A stretch of 64,000 nucleotides of DNA from positions 1 through 64,000 of the forward strand of contig JANXAL010000023.1 of assembly GCA_025062325.1 (NCBI GenBank), read 5' to 3'. Of this stretch, positions 52,990-63,661 are shown piece after piece. The position numbers and the translations under genes were made by a program. Origin of the DNA: Roseiflexus sp. GTDB taxonomy: Bacteria; Chloroflexota; Chloroflexia; Chloroflexales; Roseiflexaceae. Under the pieces are notes generated by a model that ran no database searches, was not told the DNA's origin, and saw only the letters and a program-made list of their open reading frames with translations. Positions within the stretch are counted from its first letter, which is position 1. Every line of letters begins with the position of its first letter.

Positions 52990-53457
52990 ATGCCGCCTCT
53001 TCCGCAAACCGCACAACAGCGAGCGCAACGCGCAATCGCGCGGATTGAAGCGCTTGGCGGCGGCGGCGCCTTGCCAGCCGTGCTCACATCGCACGATGCT
53101 ATCGCCTGCATGGGACGCGCCTGGTTTCACGATCTGCTCCGCAGCGGACGGTTGCCCGGCGTCCAAGTGGTGCCGCAGGGCGTCTGGCGTTGTGATCGGG
53201 ATACGTTTGTTGAATGGCTGATGGAGGTAAGCCATGGCTCCACGACAGCGATGGACATCGCTGAGCGATCTTGTACGTCACGCGCTGCGGCAGCAGGAGT
53301 GGCTGTCGCTGCGCGAAGCAGCCGAACTCTATCGGGTCACCGACGAGACGATGCTGGCGTGGGTGCGTGCGGGCGCATTTCCGTCCAGAGTCATCGACGG
53401 ACGGACATGGGTGGCGCGCGCGGAACTCGAAGCGGCGCTGCGCCGAAAACCAGGTGA
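52990..53457 (+). CDS. Excisionase-like helix-turn-helix protein, gene 1 of the ATPase module
   Basis: 155 residues if the frame is read to its stop. Residues 1-80 form a believable small DNA-binding protein: LTSHDAIACMGRAWFHDLLR, then VPQGVWRCDRDTFVEWLMEV, similar to MerR/excisionase-type HTH_17 proteins. Beyond about residue 82 the composition turns Ser/Arg/Gly-rich and looks out of frame, and the next gene overlaps by 224 nt. Either the tail is real, or the ancestral stop was lost or a frameshift links the two HTH parts. GGAGG precedes ATG 52990. Confidence 0.6.
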   Translation: MPPLPQTAQQRAQRAIARIEALGGGGALPAVLTSHDAIACMGRAWFHDLLRSGRLPGVQVVPQGVWRCDRDTFVEWLMEVSHGSTTAMDIAERSCTSRAAAAGVAVAARSSRTLSGHRRDDAGVGACGRISVQSHRRTDMGGARGTRSGAAPKTR

Positions 53458-53476
53458 TTGCAATGACAACGACTGA
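53234..53476 (+). CDS. Second helix-turn-helix protein, gene 2 of the ATPase module
   Basis: 80 residues. WLSLREAAELYRVTDETMLA, then WVRAGAFPSRVIDGRTWVAR is a clear HTH_17/excisionase fold and resembles the domain in the preceding gene. GGAGG lies upstream of its ATG inside gene 1. It overlaps gene 3 by 14 nt. It could regulate the module or act as a recombination directionality-type factor. Confidence 0.8.
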   Translation: MAPRQRWTSLSDLVRHALRQQEWLSLREAAELYRVTDETMLAWVRAGAFPSRVIDGRTWVARAELEAALRRKPGDCNDND

Positions 53477-53888
53477 TCGCAGTGATTCCTTGATCGACGT
53501 GCTGATGCGCGCTCTGCAATCAGCGTCTGCGGCGCCTGCAGACGTTGCTGACAGAGTCGCTTCGTTCGATCCTTTCAGTACTTTGTCGCCATCTCCGTCG
53601 TTAGGGCTGTCGGTTGAACGTCTTGCAGCAATCGTGACCATGCTGGCGGCAGCGCCGACGATTGTGGCGGCGACACCGCCGGGAGTCACCAAAGGACGCA
53701 TATCTGCTCTTCTTGCGCCGGAAGAGCGACGCCACGCCGCCCTGATTATGGAGTGGCTCGACAAGGCGGGCGTCCTCGTCGAGCCGCGTTCCGAAGCGCT
53801 GCGTTGGCGTGAACCGCGCCCGTTTTGCAGCGATGACATCGACTGGATCGTTGCACGGGTTCGGTTGGTACACACGGAGGCGCCATGA
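53463..53888 (+). CDS. Winged-helix-like small protein, gene 3 of the ATPase module
   Basis: 141 residues. The N-terminal half is Ala/Ser/Pro-rich and low in order; the C-terminal half (GRISALLAPEERRHAALIME, WLDKAGVLVEPRSEALRWRE) looks like a winged helix, as found at the end of FtsK and coupling ATPases. Its stop overlaps the ATPase start (ATGA). It may supply DNA recognition in trans to the ATPase; that is inference. Confidence 0.65.
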   Translation: MTTTDRSDSLIDVLMRALQSASAAPADVADRVASFDPFSTLSPSPSLGLSVERLAAIVTMLAAAPTIVAATPPGVTKGRISALLAPEERRHAALIMEWLDKAGVLVEPRSEALRWREPRPFCSDDIDWIVARVRLVHTEAP

Positions 53889-56803
53889 GCCGGGGATCGA
53901 TCCGTAACAGAGAAGCCAGTCCGCCGCCAGCAACCCGTCCGCCACGCCCCGATCTGCCGCTGCACATCGTGCGCGCGCTGGCGTTTGTCTGTATTGCACT
54001 GGCATTCGCCCGCCCGCTAGCGTTGCCGCTGATCGCGGCATTCCCGCCAGCGTCATTTTCGGCGCTCCGCTTGATGAACGATCCGGCGATTGCCTTGCTT
54101 GCGTTGCTGCACTATGTGTTTGAACCGTCGATCTTTCCGGCAATTGTCATCAGCGCTCAGACAGCGCTGTATGTTCTGCTGGGCGAACTCTTGTTCGCCC
54201 TGGCGACGGTAACCCTGTCTCGTCATATGGCGCAGCGCGCAGTGCGCTCGCCGCTGTGCCTGCGGATCCGCCCGACCCATCACGCCGCAGAGCGCACCGG
54301 ACCGGTCGCAAAACCTGGCGCCCTTATGCGGTTGATCCACGGAGGCACGACGTTGCGTTCCTGGATGTACGCGGCGCCGCGCTACACCCTGCTCGTCAGC
54401 GGCGCGCCAGACCTGCCTGCTGAACTGGGAACGTTGATCACAGGTTCGCCGGAAGAGCGCCAGCGCACGATGGCTGCACTGGATGGCGCAGTGCGCAGCA
54501 GTGCGCCAGGAACGCTGATCAGCGCCTCCGATGATCCGCTGCTGGCTGCGGCGACGCCGGGGCGCTGGATCGCCTGGCAGCGCTTCGGGCTGGCGCTGCC
54601 GCCAGCCTACCCGCTCCACGCGCCGACCGTCGCTATCGAGACCGAACTGGCAGGCGTGTTGCTGGCAGCGGTACGCCCGTATGCGAGCGTAGCCCATGCC
54701 GGGCTGGAGATGGCGCTGCACCCTCAGATCGGTTGGGCGTTGGGGCGGCAGTGGCGGGCGCGCGCAACGGCGCTGAAACTGGCGCTCGAACAGCGCCAGG
54801 ATTACGCGCTGGCGCCGGATATTGCTGCAATCGAGGCAAAACTGGGCGATGCGGCGTTCGAGGCGACCATCGTGGCAACTGCGGTTGCCGAACGTCTCGA
54901 CGATGCCATCGCCGCGCTGCACGCCATCGGCGATGCGCTCGGCGCCTTTCAGCAGCGCACCGCCAGTCGTCTGCAACGCCTCGTCCCGGTTGGTCGTATC
55001 TCGATACACCAGGTATCCGATGGAAATGCAGCCAACGTCATCACTCGCCTGCGCACGCCGCTCGTTGCGCCGCCGCCTGCGCTCCTGTTGCCGTTCCGTC
55101 TCTGGCGCGGACCAGATATTCTGACTGCGGGGGAACTCGGCTATCTCTGGAACCCGTCCTCCACGCCATCGAGCGGATTGGTGCGCTGTGATCCGTGTCG
55201 TCGAATCGCAGCGCCGCCGCACGCCTTCTGCGGCAGCGATCCGGAACGCATCGTGGTGGGATATGCCACCCATACCGATGGGCAGCGTGCGCCGGTTGGA
55301 CCGACGCTGCGCGATCTGCGCCAGATCCTGCACCTGACCGCTGGCATGGGCGCCGGGAAGAGCCGGTTGCTGGCAAACCTGTGTCAGCAACTTGTGCCGC
55401 ACGGGTTTATGCTCATCGACGGCAAGGGCGACGACCGGGGCGGCAGTCTGGTGGATACGGTGCGGCAGCTCATCCCGCTGGCAGACGAAGAGCGGCTGAT
55501 TCTGCTCGATCCCCTCGATACCGCCTGGCCTATCGGTCTGAATCCGCTGGCGGGCGTGGACGCCGCGCAGCCGGGTGGCGCCGACCTGGCGCTGGGGCAG
55601 ATTCTGGCCACCTTTGCGCGTATCGACCCTGGAACGTGGGAACGGTCGCCTGGCATGCAGCAGTTCGCGCGGATGGCGGCACTGCTCGTGCTGGAAGGCG
55701 AAGCGCGTCCTACGCTGGCGCACGTCAAGCAGGCGTTGCTCGACGAAGCGTACCGGGAGGAATTGCTGCAATCAACGCGCAATATCGAGGTTGTCAGTTT
55801 CTGGCGTGAAACATATCTGCGCCTGGGAGAGGGGCAACGATCCAGTTGCGACGCGCTGCTGCGGCGGTTTGATGCGCTGCTGACCCCTGAAACGACGCGC
55901 TACTTGGTGGCGCAGGCGCAACCGACGCTCGATCTGGCGCAGATGATCGCCAACCGCATGATCGTCCTCGTGCCATTGCCCGATGTGGCGCTGGGCGGGC
56001 TGGCTGGCGCCGTCGGGATGCTGATTGCCCAGGCGTTTGTGCGCGCCGCATTCAGTCGGAGCGGCGGCGACCAGAATCGCCACGACTATCCGCTGGTCAT
56101 TGACGAGTTGCAGGTGCTGCTTGGCAATAGCGACACAACCGACATGGCGACCGCTATCACCCGTCTGCGGTCGCTGGGCATCCCGGCGATCTACGCCCAT
56201 CAGGCGCTGGCGCAGTTGGGTAATCTGCGCGACCTGATGCTGATCAACGCAGGCAACCGGATCATGCTGCAAACTCAGGAACCCGACGCAAGCATCTATG
56301 CGCGCGCCTACGCCGCCAGCGGTCTCACCGCTGCCGACCTGAGCGGGCAGCCGCCGCACGATCACCAGTACGCCATCTTGCGCTGCCGCGGCGTAGTCGC
56401 AGGACCGTTTTCAATGCAACCGCTCCCCTGGCCCGTTATCCGGGATGAACCTCCGCCACCCTATGCCGGACCTCAATGGCGCGAGGTTCTTCCTGAAGAC
56501 GGCGATCCGGCGGATCGCTTGATTGCACAGCTTGTGTACGATGCCAATACCAGCGCGAGCGCCGCACGAGAACTGGCGCAACTTGGCGATGAGGACTGGC
56601 GCCGCCTGCTCCATCGCTGGGAGTGCATCAGGCGCTGCCAACGCCAGTATATTCTGGATCATCCGGGCTGCATTCCCGACCGGTTGGAGCGTCAGCGCTG
56701 GCTCTCGCGCCTGTATGCGGCGCGTCCGCGGGTGCTGGCGGCGGCGGAGTATCTGCGCGGGCGTCAAAAAAGATCGCATCAGAAAGCCTTAAACACGAGT
56801 TGA
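53885..56803 (+). CDS. Membrane-anchored coupling-type (VirD4/TraG-HerA-like) ATPase, gene 4 of the module
   Basis: 972 residues. Three hydrophobic segments (about 27-52, 57-78, 85-118) anchor it. A long helical middle region (about 130-440) precedes the motor. Walker A is GMGAGKS (487-493) in HLTAGMGAGKSRLL, and Walker B is YPLVIDELQVLL (Asp740-Glu741). GIPAIYAHQALAQLGNLRDL and NAGNRIMLQTQEPD are the conserved sensor stretches of T4SS coupling proteins. It probably moves DNA or protein through a membrane. The C-terminus is basic (YLRGRQKRSHQKA). No relaxase, VirB or integrase is nearby. Confidence 0.82.
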   Translation: MSRGSIRNREASPPPATRPPRPDLPLHIVRALAFVCIALAFARPLALPLIAAFPPASFSALRLMNDPAIALLALLHYVFEPSIFPAIVISAQTALYVLLGELLFALATVTLSRHMAQRAVRSPLCLRIRPTHHAAERTGPVAKPGALMRLIHGGTTLRSWMYAAPRYTLLVSGAPDLPAELGTLITGSPEERQRTMAALDGAVRSSAPGTLISASDDPLLAAATPGRWIAWQRFGLALPPAYPLHAPTVAIETELAGVLLAAVRPYASVAHAGLEMALHPQIGWALGRQWRARATALKLALEQRQDYALAPDIAAIEAKLGDAAFEATIVATAVAERLDDAIAALHAIGDALGAFQQRTASRLQRLVPVGRISIHQVSDGNAANVITRLRTPLVAPPPALLLPFRLWRGPDILTAGELGYLWNPSSTPSSGLVRCDPCRRIAAPPHAFCGSDPERIVVGYATHTDGQRAPVGPTLRDLRQILHLTAGMGAGKSRLLANLCQQLVPHGFMLIDGKGDDRGGSLVDTVRQLIPLADEERLILLDPLDTAWPIGLNPLAGVDAAQPGGADLALGQILATFARIDPGTWERSPGMQQFARMAALLVLEGEARPTLAHVKQALLDEAYREELLQSTRNIEVVSFWRETYLRLGEGQRSSCDALLRRFDALLTPETTRYLVAQAQPTLDLAQMIANRMIVLVPLPDVALGGLAGAVGMLIAQAFVRAAFSRSGGDQNRHDYPLVIDELQVLLGNSDTTDMATAITRLRSLGIPAIYAHQALAQLGNLRDLMLINAGNRIMLQTQEPDASIYARAYAASGLTAADLSGQPPHDHQYAILRCRGVVAGPFSMQPLPWPVIRDEPPPPYAGPQWREVLPEDGDPADRLIAQLVYDANTSASAARELAQLGDEDWRRLLHRWECIRRCQRQYILDHPGCIPDRLERQRWLSRLYAARPRVLAAAEYLRGRQKRSHQKALNTS

Positions 56804-56920: not shown

Positions 56921-57199
56921 ATGCAGAAAACCGACTTCATCAAGGCGGTCGCCGAGCGAGCGAACCGGTCGCAGAAGGAGACGAAGGAAATCGTCGATGC
57001 GGCGCTGGAAGTCATTACCGAGGCGTTGAAGCGCGGTGAGAAAGTCACGCTCACCGGCTTCGGGACGTTCGAGGTGCGGCAGCGCCAGGCGCGCGAGGGG
57101 GTGAATCCGCAGACCCGCACGAAGATCCACATTCCGGCGACCCGGACGCCTGGCTTCAGCGCCAGCAGCACCCTGAAGAACGCTGTGAAGGAGGGGTAA
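56921..57199 (+). CDS. hup: HU-family DNA-binding protein
   Basis: 92 residues. MQKTDFIKAVAERANRSQKE and GFGTFEVRQRQAREGVNPQT and TKIHIPATRTPGFSAS are textbook HU. It bends and compacts DNA as a dimer. AGAAAGGATAGAAGC precedes the ATG. It is followed by a good terminator. Confidence 0.95.
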   Translation: MQKTDFIKAVAERANRSQKETKEIVDAALEVITEALKRGEKVTLTGFGTFEVRQRQAREGVNPQTRTKIHIPATRTPGFSASSTLKNAVKEG

Positions 57200-61108: not shown

Positions 61109-63661
61109 TCACCGTTCCTGCAGCCGCACAATGGTGACGCCTTCGCCGCCTTCCGTTGCGCTGGCGCTGCTGAACGATGCGACCAGTTTGTGATCCTTGA
61201 GCAGATCGCGCACCGTCTGCCGCAGTGCGCCGGTGCCTTTGCCATGAATGATCCGCACCCACGGCAATCCGGTAAGATAGGCGTCATTCAGGTAGCGATC
61301 AAGACGGTCGCGCACATCGGCAGCCCGCCAGCCGCGTATATCGAGTTCGAGCGATACATCACGCGGGACGGGGATGGATATCCCGCGCGATTCGTCGATC
61401 AGGCGAGCAAGCTGCCCCTCTTTCCCATAGCCACGCTTTTCGCGCGTCAGTTCGGAGAGATCGACCTGCATCCGAAACCCGCCAACTTGGACGTCGGCAG
61501 TCTGCTCTTCCTCATTGATCGAAAGGATCTCACCGATCAACCCCACGGAGCGCACCCGCACGACGTCTCCGGGTCGAAGCGGGCGCGGACCGGGCTCAAT
61601 GGCGGTCGTCACAGCGACACGTTCAGCAGGTTTGCCGGGCGGCGTTTCAGGGAGCCTGGCACGAGCCTCCTGCAGTCGTCGCTCTGCCTCTTCGAGCCAT
61701 TGGCGCGACACCGATACCGAGCGAAACTCATCGCGCAACCGCCGCATCTCGCTGCGCACCTGGCGCAGCTCTGCTTCAATTTCCTCACGCGCCGCCTGCC
61801 AGGCCTCGTCGCGCCGCGCCTCGAATTCGCGCAACTCGGCAGCGAGTCGTTCGCGGTATTTCTCAGCATCGGCACGCACCTCCGCTGCGCGCTGCAACTC
61901 GGCCGCAGCAGCGTTGCGCTCACGATGGATGCCCGCGAGCAGGTCTTCAACCTGAACGTCCTGGCGCGCCATGCTAGCACGGGCGCGCTCGATCAGCGCC
62001 GGTGACAGCCCCAGCCGCGCTGCGATGGCCAGCGCATTCGAGCGCCCTGGCAAACCGATGGTCAATTTGTACGTCGGTGCAAGGGTTTCGACATCGAACT
62101 CAACCGATGCGTTTTCGACGCCGGGTGTGGCGTAGGCAAACGCTTTCAACTCAGCGTAGTGCGTCGTGGCGACGCCAAGCACGCCGAGCTCCAGCAATCG
62201 CTCAATAATCGCGCGCGCCAGCGCCGAGCCTTCCACCGGATCGGTGCCGGCGCCAAGCTCATCGAGCAACACGAGCGCCGGAAGGCGGTCGGTATGCGCT
62301 GCTTCAGGCGAGGTATTGGCAGTGATCGTGCGCTCGTCGGTCGGATGCTCCGCTATGGACCCTTCGGCGTTCTCCGCGGTCGGATGCTCTGCTATGGACC
62401 CTTCGGCGTTCTCCGCGACTGGCTCGCCTTCCAATGCGCGCAGAATGCGGATAATGTTCGTCATGTGCGACGAGAAGGTCGAAAGGCTCTGTTCGATGCT
62501 CTGCTCATCGCCAATATCGGCGAAGATCTGTTTGAACACTGGCAGGCGCGACGGTTGGGATGCAGGAATGTGCATTCCTGCCTGCGCCATCACCGCCAGC
62601 AGGCCGGTCGTTTTGAGTGCAACAGTTTTACCGCCAGTGTTGGGACCGGTGATCAGCAGAATCCGAAACGGACCGCCGAGGCGCATATTGATCGGCACGA
62701 CCTTCTGCGGATCGATCAACGGATGTCGCGCAGCAGTCAGGAGGAGGGGCGGTTCGTCAGGCGACAGCGGCGCATCGACGATCTCTGGCATCACACAGCG
62801 CATCGCAGCAGCATATCGCGCCATAGCAAGCGCCAGATCGAGGGTTGCCAGCGTCTCGACGCCGATGATAATCGCGTCGGCGTGGTCGCCGACCTGCGCC
62901 GACAGTTCCGCCAGGATGCGCTCGACTTCTTCCTGCTCGGCGAGTTGCAGTTCGCGCCAGGCATTGTTCAGATCGACGACTGTGAGCGGCTCGATATACA
63001 GCGTGGCGCCGCTTGCCGATTGATCGTGCACCAGACCGCGAATAGCGCGGCGGTGTGTGGCTTTCACCGGGATCACATAGCGCCCGTTGCGCACCGTGAT
63101 GATCGGCTCCTGCAGCGCATCGGCGTGGGACATGATCAAGCCGTGGAGTTTTTCCTGCAGGCGGTTGAATGCAGTGCGCACCTCAGCACGCAGCCGCGCC
63201 AGTTTAGGGCTGGCACTGTCGAGCACCTGACCATCATCCCCAATTGCGCGCGCAATGACATCTTCAATCTCTGGCAAGAGCGGCAGGTGAGCAGCAATCT
63301 CGCGGATGAGCGGAAAGGCTTCCGGGTCAAGCTTGAGCAGCGTCGTGCGCAGACGACGTGCGCTGGCGAGCGTTGCCGCGATGTCCAGGAGCGTCGATGC
63401 ATCGCACACTCCGCCGCGCCGCGCCCGACCAACCGCCGGACGCACATCGCGCGCGCCGCCGATCGTGAGGTCGGGCATCTCATCGAGCAAACGGCGCGCC
63501 TCATCGGTCAGGCGCAGGCGTCGGCGCACCTCAGCCGGGTCGACCGACGGCGTCAGGCTTAACGCCATCTCGCGCGACACTGAAAATGCCGTGTAGCGTG
63601 CGAGATGCTGACGGACTTTAGGAAACTCGAGCGTTTCGAGCGTCTGGAGGGCGATAGCCAC
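61109..63661 (-). CDS. mutS2: Endonuclease MutS2
   Basis: 850 residues (usual about 780). MutS core with Walker [10 protein letters not shown] (Lys345), [20 protein letters not shown], a coiled coil with many Arg/Glu, and a C-terminal Smr domain ([40 protein letters not shown]). It suppresses homologous recombination or resolves collided ribosomes. An insertion near residues 416-441 is a 39-bp tandem duplication. The start is GTG with GAGG upstream. Confidence 0.93.

Follow-up and report, generated by a model that had tools for sequence, protein, structure and literature searches.

A window of 64,000 nucleotides from the genome of a Roseiflexus sp. (G000; contig JANXAL010000023.1) carries a module of four overlapping genes on the plus strand, at positions 52990-56803, that encodes a VirD4/TraG-like membrane ATPase of 972 amino acids, two small proteins of helix-turn-helix type (HTH1 and HTH2) and a probable winged-helix protein (wH). 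With good probability, the module supplies the coupling part of a hybrid between a Tad pilus and a type IV secretion system (T4SS) that is fixed in the chromosome and apparently lacks a relaxase; the rest of the hybrid is encoded at a second locus. The four open reading frames (ORFs) were found as originally predicted, and the description of a VirD4/TraG-like motor accompanied by small HTH proteins was supported, its gene order being kept in close relatives. Genome searches were run by protein family or with single protein queries.

A second locus encodes VirB4, a VirB6-like protein and Tad proteins

No further T4SS or Tad gene was present in the window or in the remainder of its contig. When VirB4 of the related genome G007 was used as query, one homolog (60-61%) was detected in G000, in each Roseiflexus genome and in the sister genus (G009). 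In G000 this gene lies on another contig (C136:11094-12944). The earlier statement that there is no VirB channel is thus correct for the window and its contig but not for the genome, which has a VirB4/VirB6-like/Tad cluster on C136. The VirB4 locus was read in G000, G001, G003, G004, G005 and G009, and in all six the order was the same: Tad genes, VirB6-like gene, peptidase, small proteins, VirB4 and P417. TadE, SAF, T2SSE, CbiA, M23 and TraG P-loop domains were recognized at this locus, together with a sub-threshold match to TrbL. The peptidase is of the M23/M15 wall-peptidase type, and VirB4 matched the NCBIfam VirB4-like model at 5.7e-57, under the curated cut-off.

The Tad marker set, consisting of the CpaF/TadA ATPase, CpaE, TadE and SAF/CpaB, was found adjoining the T4SS genes (in G003: T2SSE 1.1e-26, CbiA 1.2e-9, TadE 2.6e-5 and SAF 9.4e-8). 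A second T2SSE-type ATPase, besides CpaF, is encoded within the G003 Tad cluster (L070:6240-7481). The VirD4 locus lies apart from the VirB4 locus also in G001, G003, G004, G005 and G009. In the closed genome G003, VirB4 is at 2.72 Mb and VirD4 at 5.01 Mb, with approximately 2.3 Mb between them.

The two loci form one cluster in related genomes

In G007 a single contig carries the Tad genes, HTH1, HTH2, the VirB6/TrbL-like gene, the peptidase, two small membrane proteins, P222, VirB4, P417, a protein ending in wH, and VirD4. The same order was obtained for G010 and G013 over several contigs joined by homology. VirD4 is therefore a member of a VirB4-containing T4SS cluster, contiguously in G007 and across homology-joined contigs in G010 and G013.

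Alignment placed wH at the C-terminus of G007 P605 and of G010 P397, proteins encoded directly upstream of VirD4 (47-51% by tblastn). The VirB4 locus of Roseiflexus and G009 encodes a protein that matches the N-terminal part of P605/P397 and ends just ahead of wH, and in the window wH has a gene of its own that precedes VirD4. As judged from the alignments, the two parts of a P605-type protein are encoded at different loci, the division falling at the wH boundary; this is a presumptive scar of gene fission, as expected if one ancestral cluster was split. Fusion in the G007/G010 lineage is a possible alternative; it is weakened because two distant elements, those of ZM16-3 (G037 C70) and Chloroploca (G056), already pair a wH protein directly upstream with VirD4. 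The split may have arisen through duplication followed by reciprocal loss, or through translocation. That the compact module of four genes was ancestral was rejected as less parsimonious, as the clusters are contiguous in G007 and in the more distant elements. An FtsK-like origin of the N-terminal half of P605/P628, suspected by eye, received no support from a profile search.

A related T4SS lineage with a VirB4 approximately 35% identical to the Roseiflexus type (L120/L121, L123 and L124) was present in G057, in G396 and as a second system in G010. In G057 and G010 it includes genes resembling VirB6, the peptidase and P417; no adjoining Tad genes were seen.

The membrane ATPase

The ATPase gene (53885-56803, plus strand) shares 4 nt (ATGA) with the end of wH and is single-copy in G000. 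The Walker A (GMGAGKS, residues 487-493) and Walker B (VIDELQ, residues 737-743) motifs are conserved in alignments of relatives. Approximately two membrane helices were predicted at the N-terminus, where hydropathy peaks at residues 32-50, 71-89 and 91-109. An AlphaFold2 model built from an 11-sequence alignment (pLDDT 75, pTM 0.56) contained long N-terminal helices (24-51 and 84-120) and a RecA-like motor at about 440-860 with an all-alpha insertion, helices 565-676 being placed between the motor strands.

The model matched the folds of VirB4, DotL, TrwB, Cag-beta and HerA with Z scores of 14.6-17.7; the values for TrwB, DotL and Cag-beta were 16.3, 16.9 and 15.0, respectively, across about 330-360 residues. 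FtsK motor domains were also among the structural matches. Alignment with TrwK/VirB4 extended over about 117-939 with Z near 14 but an rmsd (root mean square deviation) of 9-10, and the model hints at a VirB4-like region ahead of the motor (residues ~120-400). No Pfam or NCBIfam model scored above its cut-off, and the comparison with the CedB model gave an E value of only 0.09. A profile of 15 relatives searched against the PDB matched DotL best (1.5e-4). The ATPase is most likely a VirD4-type coupling protein, an assignment based on the existence of a separate VirB4, the N-terminal membrane helices and the DotL profile match.

Occurrence, inheritance and selection

The ATPase was found in all five other Roseiflexus genomes (77-92% identity) and in the sister genus G009 (67-68%). 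The same ten genomes, all belonging to one family, contain VirB4, HTH2 and a VirD4 of this clade. In all Roseiflexus genomes as well as in G009, VirD4 is adjoined by an HU gene, which is followed by DctP transporter and polysaccharide-deacetylase genes wherever the contig reaches that far. The flank to the left of 52990 varies among the Roseiflexus genomes, in contrast to the constant right flank.

In G002 and G004 the HTH1-HTH2 pair was located on separate contigs because the assemblies break inside wH; the ends of these contigs reach the wH gene. In G003 and G001 HTH2 occupies a third locus (position 444,838 in G003), and HTH1 was not found beside it. As a whole-genome search located HTH2 there, its loss from these two genomes was ruled out. 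At this locus (L128:5477-7158 in G003, L129 in G001) HTH2 lies near a 76-amino-acid ORF related to a small gene that precedes the Tad cluster of G007 (L050:6574-6861). Conservation of gene order holds for close relatives, with a left flank and an HTH2 position that vary in some Roseiflexus genomes.

The module genes are under purifying selection. The ratio of nonsynonymous to synonymous substitution (dN/dS) was 0.12-0.22 for VirD4, 0.19-0.37 for wH and 0.09-0.15 for HTH2; for HTH1 it was 0.03 in a single pair (G000-G005) and could not be computed for G009. VirB4 gave 0.05-0.08. The dS values of VirD4 and VirB4 agreed pair by pair (0.45/0.45, 0.67/0.58, 0.85/0.87 and 1.15/1.23). In the VirD4 tree Roseiflexus grouped with G009 (99/98) and was joined by G010 and G007 (96/94), and the VirB4 tree was compatible with this grouping. 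Distances in VirD4 and VirB4 were correlated with r = 0.97, a value expected from shared descent and not itself proof of interaction. The next VirD4 relatives belong to elements in which VirD4 is mostly followed by a Replic_Relax gene (sub-threshold in one).

Five relaxase families (PF03432, PF08751, PF03389, PF02486 and PF07514) gave no match in the ten genomes. PF13814 gave weak hits in G000, G001 and G003, and in G010 it matched a separate element. The former were rejected: the G000 gene encodes a 209-amino-acid regulator-like protein beside suf-type genes and is kept in G001 and G003. The predicted absence of a relaxase was borne out to the extent that none of these six Pfam families could be credibly linked to the system in the ten genomes, other MOB families not having been searched.

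No direct repeat of at least 14 nt was found in the module flanks and no tRNA nearby, integrase and replicon genes not having been searched by profile; no att site, tRNA or RNA family was associated with the module. In the plasmid collection the ATPase had remote matches only, on seven plasmids (31% for a Herpetosiphon plasmid), and in the phage collection it had none; therefore no mobile carrier of the module was found. The right flank, constant in the genus and G009, and the matching dS of the two loci are not those of a mobile conjugative element. The machine seems to be a fixed part of the chromosome that is inherited vertically, and it probably derives from the machinery of a mobile element. 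What had been named beforehand as refuting the original proposal, namely that the module belongs to a larger known conjugative element of the same genome, holds in spirit: the module appears to be the coupling part of a larger conjugation-like machine, but that machine does not look mobile.

The small genes of the module and its neighbours

HTH1 (52990-53457, plus strand) is preceded by GGAGG. Its conserved part spans approximately 52990-53235 (MPPLPQ...VEWLMEVS), and the frame stays open to 53457. The match to Pfam HTH_17 (0.0073) was under the cut-off; tblastn detected relatives in G002, G004, G005, G009, G010, G007 and G013 with 59-98% identity. Within 52990-53476 the HTH1 frame is open across most of HTH2 in G000 and G005, and the extension is shorter in G007 and G009. 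Since the extension differs among these genomes, the 3' limit of HTH1 is variable, and the part overlapping HTH2 is a drifting overlap. HTH2 (53234-53476, plus strand) is an excisionase/MerR-type protein with a Pfam HTH_17 domain (2.6e-8).

The wH gene (53463-53888, plus strand) had no significant Pfam match. Its AlphaFold2 model was helix-rich with a short two-strand element, at low confidence. As a Foldseek search of this fold gave no significant match, the name is based on the model topology and the label in the original prediction. HTH1 and wH were accepted as real genes because they are kept in relatives and their dN/dS is below 1 where computable.

The right-hand neighbour at 56921-57199 (plus strand) encodes an HU-family DNA-binding protein (PF00216, 1.2e-32), which we do not claim as a part of the machine. 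A MutS2-like gene with MutS_V and Smr domains lies on the minus strand at 61109-63661, approximately 4 kb to the right of the module.

Alternative explanations

Several observations weigh against the assignment of the module to a Tad/T4SS hybrid. The motor fold is near-tied, VirB4 scoring 17.7 and VirD4-type proteins 16-17. TadB and TadC were named from position, size and homology to the G007 cluster, without a family match. A VirB8-like protein, a pilin and a prepilin peptidase were not identified, the Flp pilin and the prepilin peptidase without a dedicated search. Co-occurrence and tree congruence are drawn from one family and reflect in part shared ancestry, and we infer that the window ATPase and the VirB4 locus work together in Roseiflexus.

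An apparatus of this kind could also export or inject proteins, such as effectors or adhesins, at cell contact, with VirD4 as the protein receptor and the HTH and wH proteins as mere regulators or adaptors. We regard this as possible but rather unlikely. It would fit the lack of the five relaxase families and the probably false or separate nature of the PF13814 hits, and DotL and Cag-beta, both from systems that export proteins, are among the closest fold relatives of the motor. Moreover, ComEC is encoded in eight of the ten genomes, so natural DNA uptake has a separate candidate route. However, small putative DNA-binding proteins have been kept with the motor, and its nearest relatives reside in Replic_Relax elements, suggesting that DNA transfer was the likely ancestral role.

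The two remaining explanations both appear highly improbable. A stand-alone intracellular DNA pump, acting for example in chromosome handling like FtsK or HerA and independently of the VirB4 locus, would agree with the structural matches to HerA and FtsK motor domains and with the proximity of the HU and MutS2-like genes. Against it speak the N-terminal membrane helices and the position of VirD4 in the T4SS clusters of G007, G010 and G013, with the same phyletic pattern; in G007 and G010 the gene following VirD4 is not HU. The minimal stand-alone pump proposed originally was not supported, given the VirB4/VirB6-like/Tad cluster at the second locus. For a functionless, decaying remnant of a plasmid or integrative and conjugative element (ICE), likewise proposed originally, one can cite the mobile-type elements carrying the nearest VirD4 relatives, the scattered gene order, the ragged end of HTH1 and the failure to find HTH1 beside HTH2 in G003 and G001. 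Yet the genes are intact and VirD4 is under purifying selection, the right flank is syntenic in Roseiflexus and G009, VirD4 and VirB4 have matching dS, and VirB4, VirD4 and HTH2 have been retained despite their dispersal to three loci in G003. These observations disfavour decay.

Proposed function and comparison with known systems

In the Tad/T4SS hybrid the pilus would make contact with a cell or surface and the M23/M15 protein would open the cell wall. VirB4, as channel ATPase, the VirB6-like protein and the small membrane proteins would form the channel, on which the window ATPase would dock as a VirD4-type coupling protein to push the substrate in. wH, HTH1 and HTH2 could deliver or recognize the substrate, in the manner of relaxosome accessory proteins, or act in regulation. 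Our slightly preferred guess for the substrate is DNA exchanged between cells, as in archaeal Ced, rather than exported protein. The full proposal of a domesticated relaxase-less Tad-pilus/T4SS machine that in Roseiflexus and its close relatives trades chromosomal DNA between neighbours as a counterpart of Ced/Ups, with HTH1, HTH2 and wH as DNA-binding adaptors in place of a relaxosome, is offered only tentatively and may well be wrong.

The gene content resembles monoderm T4SS/conjugation machinery in its VirB4-type ATPase, VirB6/TrbL-like protein, wall hydrolase, VirD4-type motor and small membrane proteins. It differs in that no relaxase was found, in its chromosomal location and vertical inheritance, and in having a distant coupling protein and an attached Tad cluster. 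According to the sections of PMC12102498 consulted, the T4SS of Patescibacteria are chromosomal and mostly relaxase-less, have a monoderm-type VirB4 and a coupling-protein gene usually far from virB4, and have been proposed to be co-opted. Those sections describe the chromosomal location, the lack of a relaxase, the VirB4 type and the distant coupling gene also seen in Roseiflexus; they concern another phylum and mention no Tad cluster. The archaeal Ced and Ted systems are domesticated, chromosome-encoded conjugation machineries without relaxase that import DNA, and Ced works with Ups type IV pili in Sulfolobales (PMC9905601). The Roseiflexus system differs from these in having, in addition, a motor of VirD4 type and, adjoining VirB4, a Tad-type cluster. 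In Cutibacterium acnes, a monoderm host, Flp/Tad-pilus plasmids combine a tad locus with neighbouring transfer genes that resemble VirB4, FtsK and TcpC (PMC5696575); there both gene sets are on a plasmid, whereas the Roseiflexus system is chromosomally fixed. A literature search confined to openly licensed papers yielded no description of the latter.

Split secretion systems of this kind are missed by scans limited to a window. With the second locus taken into account, a motor that looked like an orphan becomes a component of a larger machine that is conserved. Roseiflexus would thereby provide a case of a conjugation apparatus that was domesticated, became linked with a pilus and was then dispersed along the chromosome, with selection still acting on its components. 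If the machine does move DNA, it would be a bacterial parallel to archaeal Ced.

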